NCBI GenBank assembly: GCA_016214955.1
Contig: JACRMN010000010.1
Location: forward strand, 62,001-126,000
Source: Deltaproteobacteria bacterium
GTDB taxonomy: Bacteria > Myxococcota > Myxococcia > Myxococcales > Anaeromyxobacteraceae
Direction of reading: 5' to 3'
DNA length: 64,000 nucleotides
Each line of letters opens with the position of its first letter. The first letter of the stretch is position 1. Shown in pieces: positions 7,112 through 21,343 of this stretch. A program made the translations under genes and the position numbers. The notes beneath the pieces were generated by a model. It made no database searches. It worked only from the letters and a program-made list of their open reading frames with translations, and was not told where the DNA came from.

Positions 7112-7768
7112 TCAGCCCTCGACGCGGATGACGCCCAGCTTGAGGGCGTAGCGGACCAGCTCGGTACGGTTGTGGAGGGCGAGCTTCTCCATCATGCGCT
7201 CGCGGTGGCTCATGGCGGTCTTGACGCTGATGCCCAGGAGCTCCGCCACCTCCTTGTTGCTCCGCCCCTCGGCCACCAGCTTCAGCACCTGCTTCTCGCG
7301 GTCGGTCAGCGACTCGTAAGGATCGGCACCGGCTGCCGGGCCGCCCGGTGCGGAGCTCTCCATCGCCGCCCGGGCCACCTCGGGGTCGAGCACCAGGCCG
7401 CCGCGGGACACCGCCCGGATGGAGTTGACCAGCTCGGCGCCCGCCGACTTCTTGAGGACGTACCCGGAGACGCCGGCCTTGAGCAGGCGCCGCACGTACT
7501 CCCGGTCCTCGTACTGCGACATCACCAGCACCTTGGCCCGCGCCCCCTGCTTGCGCAGCTCCAGGGTGGCCTCGATGCCGCCCAGGCCGGGCATGGCGAT
7601 GTCCATCAGCACCACGTCGGGATCGAGCTCGGCGCAGAGCTCCACCGCCCGCCGACCATCGGCCGCCTCGCCCACCACCTCGATGTCCTCCGTCGCCTGC
7701 AGCAGCGCGCGCACCCCCTCGCGCAGGATGGCGTGGTCGTCGGCGATCAGCACCCGGATCTTGCTCAC
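7112..7768 (-). CDS. NarL/LuxR-family two-component response regulator
   Basis: This 218-aa regulator has a receiver domain (residues 4-120) with acidic pocket D10-D11, phospho-acceptor D56 (LMDIAMPG) and K106-region lysines. A LuxR-type helix-turn-helix lies at about residues 150-212 (LTDREKQVLKLVAEGRSNKEVAELLGIS). It is the last gene of the 13004-7112 operon and overlaps the kinase gene by four bases, so the kinase at 7765-9693 is its likely partner. By family it should bind DNA as a phosphorylated dimer. Likely targets are the cytochrome operon itself or other respiratory genes, but no binding site is proven. Confidence 0.93.
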   Translation of the reverse strand: MSKIRVLIADDHAILREGVRALLQATEDIEVVGEAADGRRAVELCAELDPDVVLMDIAMPGLGGIEATLELRKQGARAKVLVMSQYEDREYVRRLLKAGVSGYVLKKSAGAELVNSIRAVSRGGLVLDPEVARAAMESSAPGGPAAGADPYESLTDREKQVLKLVAEGRSNKEVAELLGISVKTAMSHRERMMEKLALHNRTELVRYALKLGVIRVEG

Positions 7769-9693
7769 GTCGAGCCTCCGCCCCGATTGTCTCGCGCGGG
7801 ACCCGCGCTGTCACCCGCCACCGGGACCGGCGTGGCGCGGGTCTCGGGCTCGCCCGTCTCGGGCAGCGGCACCACCACCTCGACCCGGGTGCCCCGGCCC
7901 GGCGCCGAGTCGATGGTGGCCTGCCCGCCGAGCAGCTCGGCCCGCTCGCGGATCCCCAGCAGCCCGTAGTGCCGCCTGTCGGTCTTGCCGGGTCCGGCCG
8001 GGTCGAATCCGGCGCCGTCGTCCTCGATCTCGATGCGCAGCCGCCGGTCCTCGGCCTCGAGCTGGATCAGCACCGACTCGGCCTTGGCGTGCCGGGTGAT
8101 GTTGTTGATGGCCTCCTGGCAGATGCGGAAGACGGCGATCTCCACCTCGGGGGGGAGCCGGATCCGCGGCGCCGCACCCACCTCGCAGCGCAGCGCCACG
8201 CCCCGGGCCTGCAGGTGGCGCTCGGCGTACCAGCGCACCGCCGAGAAGAGGCCCAGGTCGTCCAGCACCGAGGGGCGCAGGTCGAGGATGAGCCGGTGGA
8301 TCTCGTCGAGGATGTGGACCGCCAGGGCCTTCACCTCGTCGAGGCGCGGCACCGGGCCGCCGCTGCGCAGGGCCGTGAGCGCCGACTCCAGCCCCATGAC
8401 GAGCACCGCCAGGCTCTGGGTTGTCTCGTCGTGGAGCTCGCGCGCGATGCGCTTGCGCTCGTCCTCCTGGGCGGTGATGACCGTGCGCAGCAGCCGGGCC
8501 CGCTGCTCCTCGCGCTCCTGCAGCTTGTCGTAGGCCTGGTGCAGCTCGCGGGTGCGCTCCTCCACCCGGCCCTCCAGCTCGGCGTTGGCCCGGGCCACCT
8601 GCCCCATGGCCTCGGCGAGCGAGGCCCGCATCCTGTCGAGGGAGCGGCCCAGCCTGCCCAGCTCGTCGCGCCCCAGGTCGGGGATGGGATCGTCCAGCTT
8701 GCCTCCGGCGATCTTCTCGGCCTCGACCGTGAGCACCTCGACCGGCCGGGTGATGCTCCAGGCCACGCCCCAGGCATACCCGCCGGCCAGGAGCAGCACC
8801 CCCAGGGCGAAGACCGCGAAGCCGGCCGGCACGACGCCGGTGGCGGTGAGCAGGTCGGCCTCGGCCTGGACCACCGCCACGCCCCAGGGCGCGGAGGCCA
8901 GCGGCGCGAAGGCCAGCACCTGACCCTGGAAGCCGAGCTCGTGGCAGTCGTTGCAGCGACCGGCGAAACCCTGGTGGGTGGCGATGAGGTTGCCGGTGGT
9001 GGGCGGGCACGGACCGGCGGCGAAGAGGCGGCCGCGCTCGGTGCTGGCCAGCACCCGGCCGCTCCGGTCCACGAGCTCGGTGGTGCCGCGCGAGCGGCCG
9101 CCGGCGCTGCGCAAGAGGGCGGCGTGGCGCGCCAGGCCCGGGTCCACCAGCCCGCCGACGACGCCGGTCACCCGCCCCTGCCAGTCCACCACCGAGACCA
9201 TGGCATAGAGGTGCAGGGTGTCGCCGACCTGAACCAGCCCCGAGACCTGCGGGCGCCCGGTGCGCAGCACCTGCTGCAGCTCCGGCAGATCGGCTGGCGG
9301 GGCCAGGCTGCGCGGGTGCTGCGGCTCCTCCAGCACCAGCCGCCCCTGCTCGTCGAGCAGGAAGACGCCGCCCACGAAGCGCAGCCCCATGAAGGCGCGG
9401 CGCAGCCGCTCGGGGTCCTGCTCGGCGCTGCGCTCCGGGCTCCCCATGGCCAGCGAGGAGGCCAGCCGCTGCAGCACCTCCAGCTCCTCGGTGATGGCCG
9501 CGTCGAAGTGCGCCGCCAGGGCCGCGGCCCCCTGCTGGCTGCCCTGCATCATCCGCTCGTCCTGTGCCCAGAGCCGCGAGAGGGCCAGCGCCGAGACGAT
9601 GGCGGTGGGCAGGAGCACGCCCACCCCCACCAGCAGCAGCACCCGGAAGCGCAGGCCGGCGCGGCCCTGGGGTCGAAGCGGAGCGGCGGACAC
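7765..9693 (-). CDS. NarX/DegS-type sensor histidine kinase with a periplasmic CxxCH haem motif
   Basis: This 642-aa kinase has a membrane segment at about residues 16-40, a large extracytoplasmic sensor (41-288, dCache-like), a second membrane segment (about 290-312), HAMP (about 310-365), a coiled coil, HisKA_3 with phospho-His H421 (ARELHDETTQSLAVL) and a HATPase_c domain. The sensor contains C247-N-D-C250-H251, a c-type haem attachment motif exposed on the side where haem is attached. It probably senses redox state, a gas or electron flux from the co-encoded cytochromes; that is inference. The GTG start directly follows the stop of the upstream gene, and the end overlaps the response regulator start (ATGA). 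Confidence 0.92.
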   Translation of the reverse strand: MSAAPLRPQGRAGLRFRVLLLVGVGVLLPTAIVSALALSRLWAQDERMMQGSQQGAAALAAHFDAAITEELEVLQRLASSLAMGSPERSAEQDPERLRRAFMGLRFVGGVFLLDEQGRLVLEEPQHPRSLAPPADLPELQQVLRTGRPQVSGLVQVGDTLHLYAMVSVVDWQGRVTGVVGGLVDPGLARHAALLRSAGGRSRGTTELVDRSGRVLASTERGRLFAAGPCPPTTGNLIATHQGFAGRCNDCHELGFQGQVLAFAPLASAPWGVAVVQAEADLLTATGVVPAGFAVFALGVLLLAGGYAWGVAWSITRPVEVLTVEAEKIAGGKLDDPIPDLGRDELGRLGRSLDRMRASLAEAMGQVARANAELEGRVEERTRELHQAYDKLQEREEQRARLLRTVITAQEDERKRIARELHDETTQSLAVLVMGLESALTALRSGGPVPRLDEVKALAVHILDEIHRLILDLRPSVLDDLGLFSAVRWYAERHLQARGVALRCEVGAAPRIRLPPEVEIAVFRICQEAINNITRHAKAESVLIQLEAEDRRLRIEIEDDGAGFDPAGPGKTDRRHYGLLGIRERAELLGGQATIDSAPGRGTRVEVVVPLPETGEPETRATPVPVAGDSAGPARDNRGGGST

Positions 9694-10263
9694 TCAGGGC
9701 TCCTCGCGCGCGGTGCGCGCCATCTTCAGCATCTCGTCCACCGTGCCCCGGGAGCGCAGCACCAGCCCGCGCTCCTTCTCGGTCCAGGCCAGCTCCCGCC
9801 AGACGTTGCCGTCGGGGCCGACGATGCGCCGCAGCGTCACCCGCTGCCCCCGCAGCCACACCGGCGACTCGTCGAGCACCGTGGCCGGCGGCAGGAGCCG
9901 GGAGGGCACCTCCGTCGTTCGGGCCGCCTGGACCAGCAGCATGTAGTGGCCGCCGGTGCGCCCGTCGAAGGCCAGGGCCGCGCCACCGGTGCGGCCCTGC
10001 ATCACCCGCACCGAGTGGGGCGGCCACTCGATGGTCTCCGGGAAGTAGCCGGGCAGGAAGAGGCGCACCTTGAGCCGCCGCTCCGCCTCCTCGACGTCCT
10101 TCACGCGGCGCAGGTCGCGAGGCTCGCCCGCCACCCACGAGGGCACCGAGTCGAGGCCCGCCAGCAGCATGGCGGCCGTGCCCAGGACCACGATCAGGCC
10201 GGCGAAGGTCCGCCACAGGTCGGAGGGGCGCCAGGCCGGCGCCGCGGGAGCCTGGGCGCTCAC
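9694..10263 (-). CDS. Single-TM protein of unknown function in the redox-sensing operon
   Basis: This 189-aa protein has one N-terminal membrane helix (TFAGLIVVLGTAAMLLAGL) and an extracytoplasmic domain. That domain contains RLFLPGYFPETIEWPP followed by strand-rich sequence and an Arg-rich helix at the end. The LP-Y-P pattern recalls domains of anti-sigma or RseB/DUF4367-type proteins, but the match is weak. It overlaps the M56 peptidase by four bases and abuts the kinase, so it is translated with both. A BlaR-like peptidase next to it could cleave it as part of a signalling chain; that is a hypothesis only. Confidence 0.7.
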   Translation of the reverse strand: MSAQAPAAPAWRPSDLWRTFAGLIVVLGTAAMLLAGLDSVPSWVAGEPRDLRRVKDVEEAERRLKVRLFLPGYFPETIEWPPHSVRVMQGRTGGAALAFDGRTGGHYMLLVQAARTTEVPSRLLPPATVLDESPVWLRGQRVTLRRIVGPDGNVWRELAWTEKERGLVLRSRGTVDEMLKMARTAREEP

Positions 10264-11231
10264 GTGACGAACACCAGCAGGATGGGGACGGCCAGGGCCA
10301 CCAGGGCGACGCGCAGACCGGCCACCGGCGAACGAGCCGGCGCCGGGCCGTCGAGCAGCCGCCGGCAGCGAAGCTCCACGTCGCGGGAGCGGGCCCTGCG
10401 CAAGGGCTCCTCCAGCGAGGCGCCGAAGGGCAGCGGCGGACGGGGTCCGCCGCCGGAGGCGCGGTGCAGCCGCAGCAGGGCGCTTGCCAGGGCCAGGCGG
10501 TCGCCCGAGACCGAGGAGCCGCTGTCGTCGGCGCGCCGCTCCGACTCCCGGGCCATGGCCCGCGCCAGCACCTGGGCCACCGGGTTGAAGAAGAGCAGCG
10601 CCCGCACCCCCATGAGCAGCCAGGAGACCAGGGGGTCGCGTCCGGCCAGGTGGGCCAGCTCATGGGCCAGGGCGGCGCGCCGCTCGGCCCCGTCGAGCAG
10701 CGCCAGCGCGCCGTGCGAAACCAGGATGGTCGGCCGGCGGATGCCGGCGCAGAAGAGGGCCGGCGCATCGAGCGGCAGCAGACGCAGCGGAGGCGCCGGG
10801 TGCAGCCCCAGCCCTCGCGCCAGCTCGGCCACCTCCGCCTCCTGGGCCGCCGTCGGCAGCTCGGGGGCGCCCCGGGCGCGCCTGCGGCCGCGGAGGAGCG
10901 GCCAGAGGTCGAGCAGGAAGAGCAGGAGCCCGATGCTGGCCATGGCCAGCACGAACAGGTCGAAGAGGCTCACGCCCAGGAGGCGCAGCTCCTCCCAGTG
11001 TCGCCCGGAGAAGAGCGTCCAGCTGTCGTGGAACTCGTCCTCCGAGCGCCAGGGAAGGAACACCAGCACCGGGGTGACGAGGAGAGGCTGGAGCAGCGCC
11101 ATGAGCCGCAGGATCAGCCGGTCCCGCGGGCTCTCGATGCGCCAGACGCGCAGCAACGCCTCGACCACCAGCGCCGCGACGAGGGCGTGGACGATCGATT
11201 GCTCGGCGAGGTCAGCCCATCTTCCCGGCAT
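10260..11231 (-). CDS. M56-family (BlaR1/MecR1-like) membrane zinc metallopeptidase
   Basis: This 323-aa protein has several membrane segments and the zinc motif H190-E-L-A-H194, followed by SERRADD about 40 residues later, where E231 is the likely third ligand. This order matches the antirepressor peptidase domain of BlaR1/MecR1 and related M56 proteins. A last hydrophobic segment sits at the C-terminus, but no penicillin-binding sensor domain is present. The start at 11231 overlaps the end of the cytochrome b gene by 20 bases. No BlaI-type repressor is nearby, so the usual partner is missing; the co-operonic one-TM protein or the kinase could be its substrate. Confidence 0.85.
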   Translation of the reverse strand: MPGRWADLAEQSIVHALVAALVVEALLRVWRIESPRDRLILRLMALLQPLLVTPVLVFLPWRSEDEFHDSWTLFSGRHWEELRLLGVSLFDLFVLAMASIGLLLFLLDLWPLLRGRRRARGAPELPTAAQEAEVAELARGLGLHPAPPLRLLPLDAPALFCAGIRRPTILVSHGALALLDGAERRAALAHELAHLAGRDPLVSWLLMGVRALLFFNPVAQVLARAMARESERRADDSGSSVSGDRLALASALLRLHRASGGGPRPPLPFGASLEEPLRRARSRDVELRCRRLLDGPAPARSPVAGLRVALVALAVPILLVFVT

Positions 11232-11940
11232 CCGCGTGGCCGTGGCCGTGCCCGTGTCCGAGATCGGCCAGGCTCTTCCCCTCCATGCGCGCCAGCTCCA
11301 GCGGGTGCTCGTGGAGCATGCGCTCGCGGGAGATCTTACCCGTGAAGATGGAGGTATCGAAGGGGAAGACGTCGGGGTTCAGGTGGGCGTTGTAGATGTG
11401 CCAGATGGTGATGACCAGGAAGGCCATCAGCCCCTCGTTGGAGTGGGCCACCTTGGCCGCCGGGATGATCTCCCCGGGAACCACCCGCGCCGCCAGCGTC
11501 GGGAAGTAGAGCACGAAGCCGGTGAGCACCATGATGATGTTGCCGGCCACCAGGCCCCAGTACTCGAACTTCATCCGGTAGTCGTACCGGTCGAAGGGCG
11601 GCGCCTTGTCGGCCACGCCCAGGTAGTAGCGCAGCGTCCCGATGGCGTCGGTGAAGTCCTGCTTCGAGGGCACCATGCTGAGCCGGGTGCGCTTGCCCAC
11701 GATGGTGTTGAGCGCCATGGCGAAGTGCACCACGGTGGAGAGCGCCAGCACCACGCCGCAGAAGCGGTGGATGGCCCGGGTGTTGTCGATGCCGCCGAAC
11801 ACGTCCACCAGGACGTGGGCCCAGCCGGTCGTGTAGAACTTCTGCGGCAGGCCGGTGAAGCACAGCAGCGCGAACACCACCATGGTGACCAGGTGCTCGA
11901 TGCGCTGCTGGACGTTGAAGCGGACGATGTACTCGCTCAT
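11212..11940 (-). CDS. Membrane cytochrome b subunit (formate dehydrogenase gamma/Ni-Fe hydrogenase type)
   Basis: This 242-aa protein has four main membrane helices with histidines placed as haem b ligands (RIEHLVTMVVFALLCFTGLP, IHRFCGVVLALSTVVHF, HSNEGLMAFLVITIWHIYNAHL). The pattern matches di-haem cytochromes b that take electrons from or give them to the quinone pool. Its tail is a His/Gly-rich GHGHGHGHADAG that could bind metal. It starts in an ATGA overlap with the end of the nonahaem cytochrome gene. The two would form a quinol:cytochrome c unit like the NrfH/Cbc-type complexes of metal reducers. Confidence 0.88.
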   Translation of the reverse strand: MSEYIVRFNVQQRIEHLVTMVVFALLCFTGLPQKFYTTGWAHVLVDVFGGIDNTRAIHRFCGVVLALSTVVHFAMALNTIVGKRTRLSMVPSKQDFTDAIGTLRYYLGVADKAPPFDRYDYRMKFEYWGLVAGNIIMVLTGFVLYFPTLAARVVPGEIIPAAKVAHSNEGLMAFLVITIWHIYNAHLNPDVFPFDTSIFTGKISRERMLHEHPLELARMEGKSLADLGHGHGHGHADAGKMG

Positions 11941-13004
11941 CGGTTCACCACCACGCGCCAGAGGTGGAGGGCGATCTGCAGCACCAGCCCGCCCACCATG
12001 AAGGGGATCATGAGCCGGTAGAACATCTGCACCAGCCAGACGATGGGAGCCTTCTGCGGGCTCGGCTCGTAGTGGGAGAGCCAGCTGGCCGGGAAGGAGT
12101 CGGTGGCGTCGGGGTGGCACTTGCGGCAGGTCTTCACCAGGTTGGCCCGCACCACCGGGGAGCCCGGGTCCTTCGACTTGGAGATCTCGTGGACGCCGTG
12201 GCAGTCGGTGCAGACGGCGGCGAAGAGCCGGTTGGGGTCCTTGGCCTTGGCGGACCGTGCGTGCCCCTTGGTGAGGGACGCCGACATGCCGTGGAAGTCG
12301 GTCAGGTAGGTGTCGACCACCCGGGTGGAGAGCCCGTACCGCTTCATCATCTTCTCGTCGGTGTGGCAGCGGCCGCAGACCTCGGGGGTGCGCAGGGCCA
12401 ACGACCCGTCCCGCGGGTCGGCGATGTCGTGGGCCCGGTGGCAGTCGGTGCAGACCGGCACGTCCTGGTTGCCGGCGGTCAGCCCCTTGCCGTGCACGCT
12501 GCCCAGGTAGACCTTGTTGACGTTGGCGTGGCAGCTGGCGCAGGTCTGGGAGATGCGGGCCCGCGGCTCGGTGGGCCGCCCGATGTCGTGGGAGCCGTGG
12601 CAGTCGACGCACAGGGCGGCCTTGCGGTTGCCCTTGGCCATGATGGCGAAGTGCACGCCGTCGAGCGTCTTGGTGTAGTTGGCGAAATGGCAGGACTTGC
12701 ACTGCTCGTAGGTCGCCACCGTCACGTCGCGCCGGGTCTTGAACGGCTTCGAGTCGTGGGGGTAGCCGGTCTTGTCGGAGTGGCAGTCGCCGCAGCGCAG
12801 GATCTCGCCGTGGACCGACTTGGCGAAGTGCTCCTGATCCACGTACAGTGACAGCTTCTCGCCGCTCGGCAGGTCCATGGTCTGCGAGGGGTCGCTGCCG
12901 TGGCAGCCCAGGCAGTCGTCCTGCTCGGCCGGGATGGCACCCCTGGCGGTGCCCATTCCCAGCGCGACGACCAGTCCCAAGAGTGCACGATGGGTTGTCC
13001 GCAT
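11937..13004 (-). CDS. Nonahaem c-type cytochrome with C-terminal membrane anchor
   Basis: This 355-aa protein begins with a signal peptide (ALLGLVVALGMGTARG). It carries nine CxxCH motifs: CLGCH, CGDCH, CKSCH, CVDCH, CASCH, CTDCH, CGRCH, CTDCH and CRKCH. A hydrophobic helix near residues 322-350 (IVWLVQMFYRLMIPFMVGGLVLQIALHLW) anchors it to the inner membrane. Extra histidines (SVHGEI, GVHFAI, SVHGKG, DFHGMS) are in position to be second axial ligands. It heads the 13004-7112 operon and is coupled to the cytochrome b gene, so it should carry electrons from quinol to periplasmic acceptors. System II maturation genes occur at 3110-5786. Confidence 0.93.
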   Translation of the reverse strand: MRTTHRALLGLVVALGMGTARGAIPAEQDDCLGCHGSDPSQTMDLPSGEKLSLYVDQEHFAKSVHGEILRCGDCHSDKTGYPHDSKPFKTRRDVTVATYEQCKSCHFANYTKTLDGVHFAIMAKGNRKAALCVDCHGSHDIGRPTEPRARISQTCASCHANVNKVYLGSVHGKGLTAGNQDVPVCTDCHRAHDIADPRDGSLALRTPEVCGRCHTDEKMMKRYGLSTRVVDTYLTDFHGMSASLTKGHARSAKAKDPNRLFAAVCTDCHGVHEISKSKDPGSPVVRANLVKTCRKCHPDATDSFPASWLSHYEPSPQKAPIVWLVQMFYRLMIPFMVGGLVLQIALHLWRVVVNR

Positions 13005-13250: not shown

Positions 13251-13946
13251 TCACCGCAGGAAGGTGTCGGTCAGCTCCTGCCAGGACCTGGCGTCGAGGT
13301 GAGCTGCGACAGGGTCCATGAGCTCGCCGCCGTCGGCGGTGGCGATGCCGAGCCGGGTCTCGAGCCAGTGGTTGAGCCGCTCGCCCTCGGCGGCGAGCCA
13401 GGCCTGGGCCTCGCCCTCCCCGCGCAGCCCCTCGAGGTCGTCGCTCTCGGGGCGCATGACGAAGAGCCAGCCGCGCGCATAGGCGTCGCTCTTCACCAGC
13501 GAGGGGTCGAGCACCACGTCCGGGTTCACGGCCATCACCGTGCCGCCGAGCGGCGCCCGGATGACCGCCTCGCGATCGCCGGCGGAGATGACGGCCGCGG
13601 GCGCGCCGGCCCGGAGCGCGGTGCCGGGCTTCGGCAGGCGCACCGAGACCGCCCAGGGCAGGATCTTCTGGGCCAGGTCGTCGACGCCGACGCGGGCGGT
13701 GCCGCGCTCGCGGCGCACCCAGGTGTGTCCGGGGGCGTAGAGCAGGCCGGGGCGGTAGCGGACGGTCCCGGCCAGCGACAGCCCCTGGGCGCGGCGCCGC
13801 GCCCAGGCGAAGGCCCGCATCAGCCCGAACACCAGCACGGCGGGGACGAGGATGGCGGCCATGGCCAGGAGCACGATGCCGAGCCGCGCCGCGATGCCGC
13901 CGGCGAAGGCCCCGAGGTTCTGGAGGATCCCGAAGATGGCGTCCAT
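13251..13946 (-). CDS. Membrane-anchored GcvH-like protein lacking the lipoyl lysine (distal copy)
   Basis: This 231-aa protein has an N-terminal membrane helix (GIVLLAMAAILVPAVLVFGLM) and then a domain like the glycine cleavage H protein. APGHTWVRRERGTARVGVDDLAQKIL matches the start of GcvH, and RAPLGGTVMAVNPDV matches the strand after the lipoyl hairpin. Where GcvH has the lipoylated lysine (ESVKA), this protein has AGDREAV, so no lipoate can attach in the usual way. The C-terminus is helical. It is the last gene of the NrfD-type operon, and a good ribosome site (GGAAGGG) precedes it. It is probably a structural or redox-complex subunit rather than part of glycine cleavage. Confidence 0.8.
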   Translation of the reverse strand: MDAIFGILQNLGAFAGGIAARLGIVLLAMAAILVPAVLVFGLMRAFAWARRRAQGLSLAGTVRYRPGLLYAPGHTWVRRERGTARVGVDDLAQKILPWAVSVRLPKPGTALRAGAPAAVISAGDREAVIRAPLGGTVMAVNPDVVLDPSLVKSDAYARGWLFVMRPESDDLEGLRGEGEAQAWLAAEGERLNHWLETRLGIATADGGELMDPVAAHLDARSWQELTDTFLR

Positions 13947-13965
13947 GGCTACCCTTCCTTTCGCG

Positions 13966-14310
13966 CTACTTGTGGCAGAGGTCGCAGCTGTCGAAGCCGA
14001 AGGCCTGCTTGCCGTGGCAGGCGCCGCAGGCCTGCCCCTTCTCCATGGCCTCGTGCTTCACCGCCTCGAACCCGACGGCCTGGCCGGGCTTCAGCATCGA
14101 CCAGCGGGCCGGGTGGCAGGCGATGCAGGCCGGGGCCTTCGCGTCCACGTGGGTGGCGTGGCTGAAGGTCACCTTCCCCGGGCTGCCGTCGCCCTGCGGG
14201 AAGGCGTAGTCGGCCGGGAGCTTCGGCAGCCCGCCCGCGCCCGCCACCGCCGCCAGGCCCAGCACCAGCCCGGCCACCGCCCCCTTCGCTCTCGTCCATG
14301 CGGTCGTCAT
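13966..14310 (-). CDS. Trihaem c7-type periplasmic cytochrome
   Basis: This 114-aa protein has a signal peptide (residues 1-25) and three haem motifs: C62-IA-C65-H66, C95-GA-C98-H99 and C109-DL-C112-H113. Additional histidines (SHATH, KHEAM) suit bis-His ligation. The size and spacing resemble the c7/c3 cytochromes that shuttle electrons in the periplasm of metal-reducing Deltaproteobacteria. The ATG at 14310 was chosen for the GAGGGGGA box upstream; an in-frame ATG at 14346 lies inside the neighbouring gene. It sits between the two GcvH-like genes, so it is likely the electron acceptor of the NrfD-type complex. Confidence 0.9.
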   Translation of the reverse strand: MTTAWTRAKGAVAGLVLGLAAVAGAGGLPKLPADYAFPQGDGSPGKVTFSHATHVDAKAPACIACHPARWSMLKPGQAVGFEAVKHEAMEKGQACGACHGKQAFGFDSCDLCHK

Positions 14311-14321
14311 GTCGTTCCCCC

Positions 14322-15035
14322 TCAGCTGCGGAAGTACTCGCGGCACAGCTCGTCCCAGTGTTCCGGCGACAGCTCGCGCGCGATGCCGTGCACCGGCGCG
14401 CCGCCGTCCTGCAGCACCGCCCCCAGCTTCGGCGCGACCCGCGCCGCCAGGGAGTCGGCCGCCGCCTCGAGCCAGCGCCGCCCGCCCTCGCCGGAGAGGA
14501 GCTGCCGCTCGTTGGCCGGGAGCCGGGCCGGCTTCACCCGCACCAGCCAGCCGGCGCCGTAGGGCTCGTGCTGCCAGGTGCCGCCCTGCTCGGCGGCCGC
14601 GTTCACCTCGGCCACCGTGCCGTCCACCGGGGAGACCAGCGGAACCCTCTTGTCGCCGTCCTTGGCCAGGAAGGCGGGCGCTCCCTGGCTGAGCGGCGCC
14701 CCGGCCATGGGGAGGCCGAGCCGCTCCACCGGGCCGAGGAGCCGGGCGGCGAAGTCGTCCATGCCCACCTCGACGAGGCCGCTGGGCAGGGCCCGGGCCC
14801 AGGTGTGGCCCGGGTGCAGCATCACGCCCTCGGGGAGCTGGAACCAGCCCTGGGCCGGTGCCGTGGCCCCGGCGGGCGCCTCGCGGCCGTGCGCCGCGGC
14901 GCGCTCCACCGCCGGCGCCGGGCGGCCGCCCTGCAGGTAGCGCCAGAAGCCGATGAAGAGCAGCAGGTAGCCGACGCCCAGCGAGTACTCCAGCAGCTTG
15001 GCCGGGTAGGCGGAGAGGAACTCGTTGCCGAACAT
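14322..15035 (-). CDS. Membrane-anchored GcvH-like protein lacking the lipoyl lysine (proximal copy)
   Basis: This 237-aa protein begins with a membrane helix (LLEYSLGVGYLLLFIGFW) and a proline-rich linker, then an H-protein-like domain: HPGHTWARALPSGLVEVGMDDFAARLLGP and SPVDGTVAEVN. The hairpin that would carry lipoate reads KDGDKRVPLVSP. Taking the conserved Ser-Pro as anchor, the position of the lipoyl lysine is Asp, though another Lys lies next to it. It is a paralogue of the gene at 13251-13946, with the same anchor-plus-H-domain plan and a helical C-terminus with a Trp. The gene follows nrfD and precedes the trihaem cytochrome. Confidence 0.8.
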   Translation of the reverse strand: MFGNEFLSAYPAKLLEYSLGVGYLLLFIGFWRYLQGGRPAPAVERAAAHGREAPAGATAPAQGWFQLPEGVMLHPGHTWARALPSGLVEVGMDDFAARLLGPVERLGLPMAGAPLSQGAPAFLAKDGDKRVPLVSPVDGTVAEVNAAAEQGGTWQHEPYGAGWLVRVKPARLPANERQLLSGEGGRRWLEAAADSLAARVAPKLGAVLQDGGAPVHGIARELSPEHWDELCREYFRS

Positions 15036-15048
15036 GGCTGGCTCCTTG

Positions 15049-16263
15049 TCAGTGGTGGCCCGCGGCCAGGTCGGCCGGCTCGCGCAGCACGGGCATGCGG
15101 TTGACGATCCAGCGGAAGGCCAGCACGCCCAGGGTCACCAGCGTCAGCGACACCCAGAGCTCGATCCAGCTGGGGACGTAGTGGTCGGGGTTCTGCCAGT
15201 CCCAGGCCACCATCGAGACGTTGACCCGGTTGAGGATGATGCCGAGGACGGCGATGGCGCCGGCGACGCGGACCGCGCCCACCCTGCGGTTGCGGGCGCC
15301 CCAGGCGAAGAGCATCGACGGCAGCAGCACGAAGCCCAGCATCTCCACCAGCCACCACACGCCCAGGAAGCCCTGGCCGATGTAGCCCCAGGCGTGGGCG
15401 TCGATGACGCCCTGCAGCTTGAGGAAGAAGTAGGCGAAGAGCACCACCGCGCCGGCCTTGCCCAGGCCCAGCGTCAGGGCGTCGGCGTCGTGGTGCTGCC
15501 CCTCGAGCTGGTGGGCGAAGACCTTGTGGGAGATGGTGCTCTCCACGATGACCATGGAGATGCCGGCGATGATGGCGGTCATGAAGAAGAAGGCGAAGAT
15601 CCAGGGCGACCACCACAGCGGGTGGAGCTTGCCGGGGGCGATGATGAAGAGCGAGCCCAGCGCCGACTGGTGCATCGAGGAGAACATCACCGAGAGGACG
15701 GTGAGGGCCAGCAGTGCCTTGCGCAGCGGCTGGTAGATCCGCTTCACGCCCAGCCACTCGAAGAAGGGCACCGCGAACTCGAGGGAGAGGACGCAGGTGT
15801 AGCAGACCACGCACCAGGCGACCTCGAAGAGCACCGACCGCGTGCCGTTCTGGGCGAAGATCTGGACCATGTTCCACGGCTTGCCCAGGTCGGCGATGAG
15901 GCCGATGACCGCCATGATGTAGCCCAGGAACCCGGTGAGGATGGCGGGCCGCTCGATGGGGTGGAACTCCTTGAGGCCGAAGATCTCGACGGCGGCGCCG
16001 ATGGTGAAGCCGCCGGCGGCCAGGGCGATGCCGGTCATCATGTCGAAGCCGATCCACACGCCCCAGGGCTGCGACTGGGTGAGGTTGGTGGTGGCGCCCA
16101 GGCCGGCGTAGAAGCGGTACAGCAGCAGGGGCACGCCGATGGCGCAGATGAAGAAGGCCACGCCGTTCATCGGGGTGAGCAGGGTCCGCAGGTAGTCGCG
16201 CGGGGTCAGGCCGAGGAGGATCTTCTCCTGGAACCACCCGCCGTTGGCGTCGGCGCGCATCAT
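15049..16263 (-). CDS. NrfD/HybB-type integral membrane quinol oxidoreductase subunit
   Basis: This 404-aa protein has about ten membrane helices and the features of the NrfD/PsrC/HybB family (TPMNGVAFFICAIGVPLLLYRF, WGVWIGFDMMTGIALAAGGF, ILNRVNVSMVAW). Proteins of this family hold no cofactor; they bind menaquinol and pass electrons to the partner ferredoxin subunit. The gene begins ATGATG and overlaps the end of the ferredoxin gene, which fits a tight two-subunit module. The length and the HPLWWSP loop are closer to HybB than to short NrfD. No hydrogenase catalytic genes are nearby, so the complex must end in the cytochrome partners. Confidence 0.92.
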   Translation of the reverse strand: MMRADANGGWFQEKILLGLTPRDYLRTLLTPMNGVAFFICAIGVPLLLYRFYAGLGATTNLTQSQPWGVWIGFDMMTGIALAAGGFTIGAAVEIFGLKEFHPIERPAILTGFLGYIMAVIGLIADLGKPWNMVQIFAQNGTRSVLFEVAWCVVCYTCVLSLEFAVPFFEWLGVKRIYQPLRKALLALTVLSVMFSSMHQSALGSLFIIAPGKLHPLWWSPWIFAFFFMTAIIAGISMVIVESTISHKVFAHQLEGQHHDADALTLGLGKAGAVVLFAYFFLKLQGVIDAHAWGYIGQGFLGVWWLVEMLGFVLLPSMLFAWGARNRRVGAVRVAGAIAVLGIILNRVNVSMVAWDWQNPDHYVPSWIELWVSLTLVTLGVLAFRWIVNRMPVLREPADLAAGHH

Positions 16264-17135
16264 GGCGTCTCCCTCCCCTCGTGCTTGGCGACCTGCTGGC
16301 GGCGGTGCGAGAAGGCGTAGATCCCCATCAGCAGCGGGGGCCACAGGGTCATGACGAAGGGCGGGACGCCCAGCGCGCCCTTGACCAGCTGCGGGTAGGA
16401 GGCGTCGGCGACCGTGACCTTCATGTCGAGCCTGGAGAAGTCGACGTCGGAGATGTAGAGCCAGTTGGTCCCGCCGGCCTCGTGCTCGCCGTACACGTGG
16501 GGCACGTACTTCGAGCCCTGCGCGTACACCCGGCGCTTGGCCTCGAGCACCAGCTCGCCGCGCTTGCCGAAGGTGAGCGCGCCGCTGGGGCAGGCCGAGG
16601 TGCAGGCCGGCGCCTTGCCCTCCGCCTGGCGCGCGGCACAGAAGGTGCACTTGCGCACCGTGGGGATGGCCTTGGCGTACTCGTACTTGGGGACCTCGAA
16701 GGGGCAGGCCACCAGGCAGTACCGGCAGCCCATGCAGCGCTCCTTGTGGTAGGCCACCGGGCCGTTCGGCTTCTTGTCGAGCGCCCGCACCGGGCAGGCC
16801 GACGCGCAGGCCGGCTCGACGCAGTGCATGCACTGGCGCTTGGCGAACCGCGGCTCGCCCGGACCCTCGAAGCGGTTGACCACCGTGAAGCTGCTCACGC
16901 CGGTCTTCCGCAGCGAGCCGAGCACCGCATCGCCGGAGGGAGGCTCCGGCAGGGCGTTGGCCTCGGCGCAGGCGGCCTCGCAGCCGCGGCAGCCGACGCA
17001 CAGGGTGGTGTCCACCAGGACGGCGTTCTCGCCGGCGCCAGCCGGGTCGCCGAAGTCCGCTCCGGCCTGGCCGGCGGCGGCGGCGACGCCGGTGGCCCCG
17101 GCGACTTTCAGGAAGGTCCTTCGCTGCATGCTCAT
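16260..17135 (-). CDS. Tat-exported four-cluster ferredoxin subunit (HybA/NrfC/DmsB-like) with C-terminal membrane helix
   Basis: This 291-aa protein starts with a twin-arginine signal (QRRTFLKVAG). It has four cysteine groups typical of [4Fe-4S] clusters: CVGCRGCEAAC, CMHCVEPACASACP, CMGCRYCLVACP and CTFCAARQ...ACTSACP. A hydrophobic helix near residues 255-275 (FVMTLWPPLLMGIYAF) anchors it, as in HybA. It should take electrons from the NrfD-like subunit on the periplasmic side. It overlaps nrfD at its stop. The 25-residue peptide gene lies 31 bases upstream, and the Cys-rich small protein precedes that. Confidence 0.93.
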   Translation of the reverse strand: MSMQRRTFLKVAGATGVAAAAGQAGADFGDPAGAGENAVLVDTTLCVGCRGCEAACAEANALPEPPSGDAVLGSLRKTGVSSFTVVNRFEGPGEPRFAKRQCMHCVEPACASACPVRALDKKPNGPVAYHKERCMGCRYCLVACPFEVPKYEYAKAIPTVRKCTFCAARQAEGKAPACTSACPSGALTFGKRGELVLEAKRRVYAQGSKYVPHVYGEHEAGGTNWLYISDVDFSRLDMKVTVADASYPQLVKGALGVPPFVMTLWPPLLMGIYAFSHRRQQVAKHEGRETP

Positions 17136-17166
17136 GGAGTTCTCCCCCTCTACGGTGCGAGACGGT

Positions 17167-17244
17167 TCAGCAGTGGGCGGTCCTGGCGAGCAGGGTGCCG
17201 AGGAATGCGACTCCGAACAGGGCGACGGGGAATGCGAGGATCAT
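17167..17244 (-). CDS. 25-residue single-helix membrane peptide in the NrfD-type operon
   Basis: A small open frame encodes MILAFPVALFGVAFLGTLLA plus RTAHC. It is one hydrophobic helix followed by a short polar tail with a terminal Cys. The AAAGGAG ribosome site lies eight bases before the ATG. It sits 20 bases after the upstream Cys-rich gene and 31 bases before the ferredoxin gene, all on the same strand. Small one-helix subunits are common in respiratory complexes, so an assembly or stability role in the NrfD-type complex is plausible. The evidence is position, ribosome site and composition only. Confidence 0.55.
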   Translation of the reverse strand: MILAFPVALFGVAFLGTLLARTAHC

Positions 17245-17264
17245 GACTGCGCTCCTTTCCTTCT

Positions 17265-17468
17265 TCACTCGTGGGAAGACCGTTCCGACTCGTACGCGCC
17301 CAGCGTGGCGCCCACGCGGTCGAGCGCCTCCCGGTAGGCCGGGCAGCCGCGGAAGCACTCGCCCTCGCAGGTGCTCGCGGTGGTCAGGTGGTCGGAGGGG
17401 ACCAGCTTCTTCACCGGGGTCGCCCGGCAGAACACCATCGTCACTTGGGCCAGGTATGGGCAGGACAT
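17265..17468 (-). CDS. Cysteine-rich 67-residue cytosolic protein heading the NrfD-type operon
   Basis: The ATG at 17468 has a strong GGAGGAGG site upstream. The protein has no signal peptide. Its cysteines are arranged as MSCPYLAQ, VFCRATP and TCEGECFRGCPAYREAL, which could bind zinc or an iron-sulfur cluster. The GCPAYREALD ending suggests a compact alpha-helical metal site. It is the first gene of the operon that continues to 13251. It may be an assembly factor or a redox-sensitive regulator; no family was recognised with certainty. Confidence 0.68.
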   Translation of the reverse strand: MSCPYLAQVTMVFCRATPVKKLVPSDHLTTASTCEGECFRGCPAYREALDRVGATLGAYESERSSHE

Positions 17469-17711
17469 GTGCGCGCCTCCTCCCCGTGCCTTTCCACGCC
17501 GCGGGCCAATGTGCGCCGTCGTCGGAATCCCGGTGTTCCCGGGTGCTTGCGGCTCCGGTGGAATCCGGCAACGGCGGGCGCCGGCGAGAAACACAACGGC
17601 GCCCCGCCCGCGCAGGGCCCGGTGTTCCAGTGACTACGGGGGGTTGACCGCGATCCTCGACGCTGCTGCGTTTCTCATCGCAACGTCGATCTTCTCAACG
17701 GTCCGGGGCGA

Positions 17712-19066
<1,355 letters not shown>

Positions 19067-19070
<4 letters not shown>

Positions 19071-19609
19071 GTCCTGGGCTCCCGGTCCTGCGCCTGGTCG
19101 AGCAGCGTCCGGCAGTCGGCACAGAGCTGCCCGCCCTTGCGATCCACGTCCCGAAGTCCGGCCGAGCGCGACATGGCGCACTCGGGCCGCGAGCAGTGGG
19201 TGAGCCCGAGCGCGTGCCCGAGCTCGTGCACCGCCTCCTTGGCGAGCCGCTCCCAGAGCACCCGCCGGTCCACCAGCACCGGCTCGGAGAGGCGCGCCGT
19301 CGAGACCACCGCGGCGCGGCCGTTGAGCTGCGCCTCGCCGAACACGAAGGTGAGGATGGGGATGAAGAGATCGACGTCGGTCATCCCCAGCACCCTGCCC
19401 TCCCCTGGCCCCTCCCGGAGCAGCCACTCCAGCATCCGGCCCGAGGCGTGCTGCTTGCGGCGCACGTCGAGGGTGCCCTGGGGCCGGGCCTGGCCCGCCC
19501 AGACGGCCGCCGGGACCCGGAAGGCCCGCTCCACGTGCAGCCGGACGTGCTCCATCGCCTCCCTCTCGATCTGCCCTTCGCCGATCCACCAGAGCCAGAG
19601 CCCGCCCAC
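19067..19609 (-). CDS. amzA: Archaemetzincin (peptidase family M54)
   Basis: This 180-aa protein carries the full archaemetzincin signature: H128-E-L-G-H132-A-L-G-L-T-H138-C139, then C144 and M146, and the distal C163-A-D-C166 pair. These hold one catalytic and one structural zinc in this family. The protein has no signal peptide and is probably cytosolic. The start is GTG with GAGGGG upstream. It is inserted between a sensor kinase and its sigma-54 regulator: the kinase ends 12 bases upstream and the regulator overlaps by four bases. Family members are often found without known substrates; the context suggests a role in turnover within this signalling route. Confidence 0.93.
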
Positions 19610-19621
19610 GCGGCCCCTCGC

Positions 19622-21343
19622 TCAGGCTCCCGGCGCCCGCACCGCCGGCAGCCGGATGGTGAAGGTGGTGCCCTTGCCCACCTCGCTCCTCACCAGCACG
19701 GTCCCGCCGTGCCGCTGGATGATCCCGTAGACCACCGAGAGGCCGAGCCCGGTGCCCTTCTCCTTGGTGGTGAAGAAGGGGTCGAAGATGTGGGGCAGGT
19801 GCTCGGCGGCGATGCCGGGGCCGGTGTCGGTGATGGCCGCGTCCACCCATGCGCCGTCGGCGCTCATCCCGGTGACCACGGCGATCTTCCCGCCCTTCTG
19901 CATGGCCTCGCAGCCGTTGAGGATCACGTTGACCAGCGCCTGGCGCAGCTGGCCGAAGTCGGCGCGCACCGGGGCCACCTGGCCGAGCCGCTTCTCGAGC
20001 TGGTGGCCCTGGATGGCGATCTGGTGGGCGATGAGCTGGAGCGACTCGGCGACGGCCACGTTGAGATCCACCTCGCGGAGCTCCAGCGGGCGCTCGCGGG
20101 CGAAGTCCAGGAGGTTGCGGACGATGGCGCTGCAGCGCTCGGTCTCGCGCTGCACCAGGGCCAGGTTCTTGGCCATGGTCTTGCGCCGGGCCTCGTCGGG
20201 GACGGCCTGGTCCACCTCGCGGAGGATGAGCTTGGCGAAGGTGAGGATGCCGGCCAGGGGGTTGTTGATCTCGTGGGCGATGGAGGCCGAGAGGCGGCCC
20301 AGCGAGGAGAGCTTCTCCGACTGCACCAGGGCGGCCTGGGCGGCCTTGAGGTCGGCGGTGCGCTGCTCCACCTGGAGCTCCAGCCCGGCCTGCAGCGCCG
20401 CCAGCTCGGCCTTGGTGCGCCGCAGCGAGCGGGTCATGTCGTTGAAGGAGGCGGCCAGGAGCCCCAGCTCCCCCTTGGAGCGCACGTGGATCTCCACCGC
20501 CAGCTCCTCGCTGGCGACGCGGCGCGTCCCGTCCACCAGCGCCGACACCGGCAGCACCACGTGGCGCCGGGCCAGCCAGAGGAAGAACCCGGCCAGCAGC
20601 ACCACCCCGAGCGCGGTGCCCACGATGCTCCAGCCGCGGAACTCGGCGATGCGCCGGTCCACCTCGCGGAGCGACACCGCCACGTCGAGGACCCCCAGCA
20701 CCTGGGCCTCGCGGGGGTGGACGTGGCAGGAAGCGCCGGAGCAGCGGGCCTCGTTGTAGATGGGCTTGAGGAAGGCCATGGCCCGGTGCTCGTTGGTCCC
20801 GAAGACGCGGGCGCGGGAGCCGCTGGGCAGGCGGGAGATGGGGCGGTCGGCCTGGTGGCAGACGAAGCAGGCCTCGGCGTTCTTGTCGACGAGCGAGTTG
20901 ACGTCGCGCGGATCGGTGGAGAAGGTGATGCGCCCTTCCTTGTTGAAGATGCGCACCTTCTCGGTGCCGGGCTCGGCGCCGATGACCCGCATGATCTCGT
21001 AGGCGTCCTCGCGCCTGTCCTCCAGCATGGCCCGGTGGGTGGCCCGCTCGATGGTGTGGCTGAAGAGCTCGGCGCCGGCCTCGACCTGCTCCATGAGCGA
21101 GTCCTGGAAGCGGGCCTCGGTGACGGCGAAGACCACCACCCCCACCAGCGTGAGCACCGCCGTCAGCGACAGGAGCTTGGTGGAGAGCCGGTGGCGCCAG
21201 GGGATGGCGACCGGAGGGCGCAGGACGAAGTCGCCGGTGCGATCCCCCACGCTGGCGACGTCGAGCTCCGCCTCGTCCTGCACGCCCAGCCCCCCACCTT
21301 CGGCTACCTTGGGCTCGGCGGGAGTGGCCCCTTCCCCTGGCAT
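19622..21343 (-). CDS. Sensor histidine kinase with two c-type haem motifs in its periplasmic domain
   Basis: This 573-aa protein has membrane helices at about 52-75 and 239-258. The periplasmic domain between them contains C159-F-V-C162-H163 and C201-x4-C206-H207. The first is a normal c-haem motif; CX4CH is also used in some cytochromes. HAMP, a coiled coil, HisKA with phospho-His H357 (ASIAHEINNPLAG) and HATPase_c with DTGPGI and GTGLGLS follow. It is first in the operon with archaemetzincin and the NtrC-type regulator. Sensing of redox potential, NO, O2 or electron flow by haem is likely but unproven. Confidence 0.93.
   Translation of the reverse strand: MPGEGATPAEPKVAEGGGLGVQDEAELDVASVGDRTGDFVLRPPVAIPWRHRLSTKLLSLTAVLTLVGVVVFAVTEARFQDSLMEQVEAGAELFSHTIERATHRAMLEDRREDAYEIMRVIGAEPGTEKVRIFNKEGRITFSTDPRDVNSLVDKNAEACFVCHQADRPISRLPSGSRARVFGTNEHRAMAFLKPIYNEARCSGASCHVHPREAQVLGVLDVAVSLREVDRRIAEFRGWSIVGTALGVVLLAGFFLWLARRHVVLPVSALVDGTRRVASEELAVEIHVRSKGELGLLAASFNDMTRSLRRTKAELAALQAGLELQVEQRTADLKAAQAALVQSEKLSSLGRLSASIAHEINNPLAGILTFAKLILREVDQAVPDEARRKTMAKNLALVQRETERCSAIVRNLLDFARERPLELREVDLNVAVAESLQLIAHQIAIQGHQLEKRLGQVAPVRADFGQLRQALVNVILNGCEAMQKGGKIAVVTGMSADGAWVDAAITDTGPGIAAEHLPHIFDPFFTTKEKGTGLGLSVVYGIIQRHGGTVLVRSEVGKGTTFTIRLPAVRAPGA

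Follow-up and report, generated by a model that had tools for sequence, protein, structure and literature searches.

Lipoate-free GcvH-like domains in an Hmc-type respiratory operon and their association with an archaemetzincin, a histidine kinase and a sigma54 activator

The minus-strand genes at positions 13251–17468 of a 64,000-nucleotide stretch of DNA (hereafter the window; part of contig C3 of an Anaeromyxobacter-like genome, whose locus-bearing relatives are named Anaeromyxobacter) include two that encode membrane-anchored proteins, GH1 and GH2, each carrying a domain that resembles the glycine cleavage H protein GcvH and has lost the lipoyl lysine. By homology, GH1 is an HmcD subunit with a GcvH-like domain grafted on, and the family to which both proteins belong is, by association, mostly encoded near an archaemetzincin (peptidase M54), a histidine kinase and a sigma54 activator, together with an Hmc-type or an HdrA-type complex. 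We see an even chance that the domain acts as a cofactor-free docking or regulatory adaptor between the quinone complex and its own control module. The principal genes are:

13251..13946, minus strand: GH2, 231 aa, N-terminal membrane helix, lipoate-free GcvH-like domain and C-terminal extension (Pfam PF01597, 2.7e-20)
13966..14310, minus strand: predicted periplasmic trihaem c7-type cytochrome, 114 aa, three CxxCH (PF14522, 2.5e-10; TIGR04257, 58.7 bits, cut-off 40)
14322..15035, minus strand: GH1, 237 aa, HmcD-like helix fused to a lipoate-free GcvH-like domain and C-terminal extension (PF01597, 4.6e-14)
15049..16263, minus strand: NrfD/HybB/HmcC-like integral membrane quinone subunit (PF03916, 2.5e-12; HmcC model 437.7 bits, cut-off 550)
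16260..17135, minus strand: HybA/HmcB-like 4Fe-4S subunit with a twin-arginine translocation (TAT) signal (PF13247, 5.7e-20; HmcB model 337.5 bits, cut-off 420)
17712..19070, minus strand: NtrC-type sigma54-activating response regulator (PF00158, 2.1e-73; PF00072, 5.6e-30; PF02954)
19067..19609, minus strand: archaemetzincin, peptidase M54 (PF07998, 1.2e-20; NF033823, 149.2 bits, cut-off 145)
19622..21343, minus strand: membrane histidine kinase with one CxxCH by motif count (HAMP, HisKA, HATPase_c)

Both GH1 and GH2 have, as modelled, the fold of GcvH. They score well above the Pfam GCV_H cut-off of 22.2 bits (GH2 72.9 bits, E 2.7e-20; GH1 52.8 bits, E 4.6e-14), their AlphaFold models (mean predicted local distance difference test score 89.8 for GH2 and 86.9 for GH1) consist of a membrane helix, a GcvH-type domain and additional C-terminal helices, and their best solved matches in Foldseek are GcvH crystal structures (E 2.0e-11 and 5.9e-11, respectively). 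An earlier note on this DNA had described two anchored H-protein-like domains flanking a trihaem cytochrome beside NrfD/HybB and ferredoxin subunits, without a lipoyl lysine and away from glycine cleavage genes, and this observation is confirmed in each part: the first by PF01597, Foldseek and gene order, the second by the gap-free alignment of the lipoate-bearing hairpin of GcvH, in which Asp replaces the lysine in both proteins, and the third by the position of the genome's own gcvH, which lies elsewhere, on contig C19 (L041; loci are given as L numbers), amid gcvT- and gcvP-like genes, the latter named by eye from protein starts. The careful alignment that the earlier note had called for revealed no conserved lipoylation lysine: 13 of 154 distinct family sequences carry K in this column (G 52, S 26, D 19, A 14, others), compared with 12 of 12 true GcvH aligned alongside them, and the family has lost the E-S-(V/T)-K surroundings. 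GH1 and GH2 as canonical GcvH paralogues were rejected on this column, on the gcvH model TIGR00527, which the two proteins match with 61.2 and 43.5 bits, below its cut-off of 115.85, and on a FastTree tree that splits the 12 GcvH from the 154 family members with support 1.0. Two further NCBIfam models gave scores below cut-off as well, namely not_gcvH (GH2 22.9, GH1 24.9 bits; cut-off 144.05) and GcvH_rel_desulf (GH2 24.2, GH1 19.2 bits; cut-off 150). With GcvH, GH1 and GH2 thus share the fold and about 30% identity; they differ from it in lacking the lipoyl lysine and in having a membrane anchor, a C-terminal ‘ADGG’ extension and no gcv genes nearby.

The residue one after the lost lysine is often basic (R 53 and K 33 of 154), and GH1 has a Lys there, which is not kept in its relatives. 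This could be taken as a sign that lipoate is attached at a shifted lysine, but GH2 has Arg at that position, the setting of the true lysine is lost and K is rare in its column, and we consider such modification highly improbable; lipoate on a neighbouring lysine was rejected by the 154-sequence column counts. The intact fold and the frequent basic residue could likewise point to another covalent or non-covalent cofactor or to a bound metal, and the earlier note had suggested that the domains accept another cofactor. That suggestion does not hold up well, and we think it very unlikely: the 44 aligned members have no family-wide conserved Cys, Lys or additional His, and the sole invariant His (in PGHTW) is common to GcvH.

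The lipoate-free family, with its own C-terminal extension, occurs in Myxococcota, Acidobacteriota, Planctomycetota and Desulfobacterota. A family profile of 44 rows, covering domain and extension, is matched by members to position ~168–172, mostly with more than 110 bits (a few divergent ones with 60–92 bits), whereas the match of true GcvH ends by about position 143 and mostly stays below 100 bits, with one at 114. At E<=1e-42, a threshold fixed after the weaker score of true GcvH had been seen, 74 of 297 Desulfobacterota genomes are positive, as are 33 of 199 Acidobacteriota genomes at E<=1e-36, in five of which the match stops short of the end of the extension. Within the window's own bacterial family, a single-protein search with GH2 matches 18 of 24 sampled genomes at E<=1e-40. 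The HmcD–GcvH-like architecture is that of GH1; other members are fused to SML, a Cys-rich protein (L192, L193, L196 and L220, and L103 by eye), or to 2Fe-2S/4Fe-4S proteins (L057, L218), and at L212 (4196–7099) the GcvH-like domain, again lipoate-free, forms the end of a 968-aa HdrA/MvhD-like protein whose gene stands in line with that of a MetF-type methylenetetrahydrofolate reductase. Some members are soluble, being fused to HdrA-type or 2Fe-2S/4Fe-4S proteins, and have no cytochrome with them. Gene calling at some loci used a simple longest-open-reading-frame method, which mis-frames some GC-rich loci. An HdrA/MvhD-like protein of ~970 aa with a lipoate-free GcvH-like domain at its end is found at L215 (6607–9522), and three tandem soluble GcvH-like genes are called at L198 (5103–10112; four domains in a six-frame scan) and L200 (4515–8802), where the neighbours are a DUF1641 protein and a type III sulfide:quinone reductase, the latter tested in L198.

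A scan of genome contigs with the single GH2 protein gave no match, and a scan with an NrfD profile, used in its place, yielded 80 named loci, 15 of which have a GcvH-like open reading frame (ORF) nearby. Many of those without one have a short membrane peptide after NrfD instead, and two such peptides pass the NCBIfam HmcD model NF045712 (cut-off 34; L070 45.4 bits, L099 39 bits), two others, from L075 and L093, falling below it with 31.2 and 20.5 bits. NF045712 itself found no match on the window piece. A profile made from 30 HmcD peptides encoded on their own, however, matches the N-terminus of GH1 at E 1e-5, the sole real match among 571 window ORFs (next E 6), and of its 101 listed matches at E<=0.01 in 22541 ORFs, 65 are GcvH-like ORFs, a count from which the non-GcvH-like matches in training loci had been dropped beforehand. 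GH1 is thus, by homology, an HmcD–GcvH-like fusion.

The window shares with the Hmc complex of sulfate reducers (HmcABCDEF) the order of an HmcB-like iron–sulfur (FeS) subunit, an HmcC-like NrfD subunit and the HmcD anchor, as well as a periplasmic cytochrome c partner; the Hmc feature of HmcD following HmcC is found here in the N-terminus of GH1. Unlike in Hmc, the HmcD-like protein of the window bears a GcvH-like domain predicted to be cytoplasmic, and a trihaem c7 takes the place of the 16-haem HmcA (HmcA model on the c7 protein, 10.8 of 400 bits). The HmcB and HmcC models are the best-scoring ones and miss their cut-offs (scores above), and no HmcE/HmcF-like ORF was noticed in the gene call covering positions 9–24 kb, in which no search aimed at HmcE/HmcF was made. 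The menaquinone reductase QrcABCD similarly combines a multihaem cytochrome c, an FeS protein and an NrfD-type subunit, but the QrcD and QrcA models stay far under cut-off at the window (81.7 of 570 and 24.6 of 180 bits), and we know of no H-like subunit in it.

The positive-inside rule places the GcvH-like domains of GH1 and GH2 on the cytoplasmic side, as Lys and Arg are richer on the side of the anchor leading into the domain in 15 of 16 GH1 and 15 of 16 GH2 sequences, with the GH1 of L040 (helix mis-picked) and L059 as exceptions. The c7 protein has an export signal, and c7 and the TAT-signal FeS subunit are predicted to be exported. If the domains are cytoplasmic and c7 is exported, the domain should not directly hold the cytochrome. 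The idea of the earlier note that the domains hold or position the cytochrome was accordingly rejected on topology, the distribution of Lys and Arg around the anchor, and the cytochrome-free family members speak against it as well.

Around the family genes, the company is largely the same from locus to locus. In 61 context loci (six-frame ORFs, presence in the fetched stretch) M54 is found in 38, a kinase in 42 and an activator in 43, alongside FeS in 22, NrfD in 22 and an HdrA-like protein in 21, FeS/NrfD and HdrA never occurring together; these shares are biased, as the loci were taken from top-scoring matches, several of them (L212–L218) were chosen for long fused ORFs, and L208 and L216, both counted, overlap on one contig. 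The GcvH-like domain, M54, kinase and activator are thus the constant part and the electron-transfer complex the variable one. Among the 80 NrfD loci, M54 is present in 6 of the 15 that have a GcvH-like gene and in 1 of the 65 that have none, the single exception being L062, and the same numbers hold for c7 (6/15 vs 1/65); kinases are found in 11 of 15 vs 28 of 65, and activators in 11 of 15 vs 24 of 65. Independently of locus choice, M54 occurs in 70 of the 74 family-positive Desulfobacterota genomes vs 37 of the 223 negative ones, and looser cut-offs (1e-36 and 1e-40) give a similar picture (74/81 vs 33/216 at 1e-36). Among the matches listed, 64 of the 74 positive genomes have M54 and a family gene no more than 8 kb apart, and 73 of the 96 listed M54 copies in positive genomes lie that close to a family gene.

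The kinases differ with the complex. Within 7 kb of family genes, 12 of 16 kinases at Hmc-type loci have two membrane helices and a CxxCH motif; at Hdr-type loci none of 18 has CxxCH and 15 of 18 have no helix, and at the remaining loci all 12 are without CxxCH, in a table that is built on gene calls and hence misses some kinases. Because CxxCH membrane kinases go with the Hmc form and mostly soluble kinases with the Hdr form, the sensor is located where the complex works, and sensor location matches complex type. Together with the size of the family and the HmcD identity of the GH1 anchor, this association with a protease and a two-component system goes beyond the earlier note.

The docking partners of GcvH include a flavoprotein disulfide reductase and other enzymes. 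By analogy, the GcvH-like domain would offer the complex to a partner in the cytoplasm, for which the complex's own control module is the likeliest candidate, GH1 and GH2 being cytoplasm-facing, cofactor-free subunits of an Hmc-type (HmcB–HmcC–HmcD-like) quinone oxidoreductase that is predicted to exchange electrons with periplasmic c cytochromes. The kinase would read the redox state, with a periplasmic haem-motif sensor where the complex is the membrane form and with mostly soluble sensors where it is the Hdr form; the operon and unlinked GH1–GH2 cassettes would be driven by the sigma54 activator, and M54 may act on the complex or the adaptor in assembly or turnover. As the domain and its three companions are constant while the complex varies, an adaptor to the control module is the simplest account. 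More generally, and tentatively, the domain might be a dedicated adaptor that reports on or controls anaerobic electron-transfer complexes, interchangeably membrane-bound (Hmc) or cytosolic (HdrA, sulfide:quinone reductase), via a private module of kinase, sigma54 activator and archaemetzincin.

Several points weigh against the adaptor proposal. Its support comes from homology, topology rules and gene neighbourhood, and gene order could mirror shared regulation only; the fetched flanks of some family loci (e.g. L040, L050, L051, L058 and L198) contain neither M54 nor a kinase nor an activator, and, as given above, 37 of 223 Desulfobacterota genomes have M54 without the family. At L062 (5851–7430), in a metagenome-assembled genome (MAG) of the Anaeromyxobacteraceae, GH1 and GH2 are missing from their places among the NrfD, c7 and multihaem genes of the operon, although unlinked copies were not searched for, and the sigma54-like site of the window is weak on its own, with 32 of 300 shuffles equally good.

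Two alternatives are live rivals. The GcvH-like proteins and M54 could be a chaperone and a maturation protease for Hmc- and Hdr-type complexes, with the two-component system setting expression only, and their constancy beside variable complexes, the persistence of the L062 operon without linked GH genes and the existence of unlinked GH1–GH2 cassettes would all fit such an assembly role. GH1, however, carries the helix of an Hmc subunit, HmcD, so that at least GH1 should remain in the complex, and we regard a role confined to assembly as possible but rather unlikely. The domain could instead be an electron-transfer dock that, as GcvH binds dihydrolipoyl dehydrogenase, brings an HdrA- or sulfide:quinone-reductase-type flavoprotein to the complex and carries no electrons itself. 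Links and fusions to HdrA-type proteins, a NuoF–GltD-like flavoprotein nearby in L218 and the type III sulfide:quinone reductase near the L198 genes (669 bits, cut-off 525) speak for this, but an HdrA-like gene is found in no FeS–NrfD context locus, and the genes called around the operon of the window showed none either. We consider such a dock unlikely.

The Act complex has NrfD-type subunits. PMC3543383 places LarG near the Act operon of Pelobacter carbinolicus; LarG is H-like, as are GH1 and GH2, but differs from them in that the paper treats it as a carrier of lipoyl groups that goes with a dihydrolipoamide dehydrogenase. LbpA of the sHdr sulfur-oxidation system is likewise a GcvH-like protein working with an Hdr-type complex, but the 95 LbpA aligned in PMC6067878 keep the lysine, and LbpA mostly has two Cys; neither feature is conserved in the family of GH1 and GH2. 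GcvH is discussed as an electron carrier for MetVF in a section of PMC8760232. No ‘glycine cleavage’ text was found in the portions consulted of papers on the Anaeromyxobacter genome (PMC2330069) and on quinol oxidases in extracellular electron transfer (PMC6295460), and a literature search in which subscription papers were mostly out of scope found nothing that connects GcvH-like proteins lacking lipoate to NrfD or Hdr complexes or to archaemetzincin.

According to the abstract of PMC3427221, very little is known of the biological importance of archaemetzincins. If true, the adaptor-module proposal would give the bacterial ones a cellular function, namely regulated proteolysis in which the adaptor is either the substrate or the guide, and would suggest how gene expression in anaerobes is tied to the control of redox complexes that are quinone-linked or flavin-based. 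A ‘glycine cleavage H protein’ annotation in a respiratory operon becomes a defined, widespread family with sharply reproducible company, and two questions become testable: the role of lipoate-free GcvH-fold proteins and the purpose of archaemetzincins.

In transcription order, the window encodes the CxxCH kinase, M54 (whose translation shows, by eye, the motif HExxHxxGxxHC..CxM), the sigma54 activator, SML, a 25-aa peptide, the TAT FeS subunit, NrfD, GH1, c7 and GH2, the 67-aa SML and the peptide being the first two genes of the segment named at the outset. About 250 bp after GH2 follow a nine-CxxCH membrane cytochrome, a b561-type cytochrome and an M56-type peptidase. The order FeS–NrfD–GH1–c7–GH2 is found again in other Anaeromyxobacteraceae and in two Acidobacteriota MAGs, so that the arrangement is more than chance. 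The further features are:

17493..17508, minus strand: candidate sigma54 -24/-12-like element TGGCCCG-N4-GTGGA, 24 nt before SML
17265..17468, minus strand: SML, 67-aa Cys-rich protein; a related N-terminal domain is fused to GcvH-like domains in L192, L193, L196 and L220
17167..17244, minus strand: 25-aa membrane peptide, found repeatedly ahead of FeS or GH1 genes (short ORF kept in 12 loci including the window)
11937..13004, minus strand: nine-CxxCH membrane cytochrome downstream of GH2 (multihaem families; kept in orthologous loci)
11212..11940, minus strand: cytochrome b561-type subunit (PF01292, 1.2e-13; orthologues present)

Upstream regions of 243–300 nt were scored for -24/-12-like sites: the best one falls 10–65 nt from the start at 14 of 14 loci, four of which are unlinked GH1 cassettes, and in 80 of 337 control regions. 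Site scores exceed those of the controls across the whole region (p 5.5e-8, independent of the 8–66 nt range, which was chosen after the sites had been seen; P-values take no account of relatedness).

SML matches no family above cut-off in Pfam or NCBIfam. A membrane peptide of 22–25 aa directly precedes the FeS gene or an unlinked GH1 gene in the window, L040, L043–L049, L052, L067 and L068. In the same genome, contig C1 carries a second, unlinked cassette of tiny peptide, GH1 and GH2 (L040, 9561–11140) with no electron-transfer genes and a weak sigma54-like site. A small, often paired protein that has a GYY motif close to its N-terminus adjoins L042 (8835–9697), L043 (15389–16315), L046 (1977–2396), L052 (180–1070) and L194 (11210–11524). 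Downstream of the b561 gene, the window encodes an M56/M48-type membrane peptidase (10260–11231, minus strand) and a second kinase (7765–9693, minus strand), and genes resembling these two occupy the equivalent place in orthologous loci.

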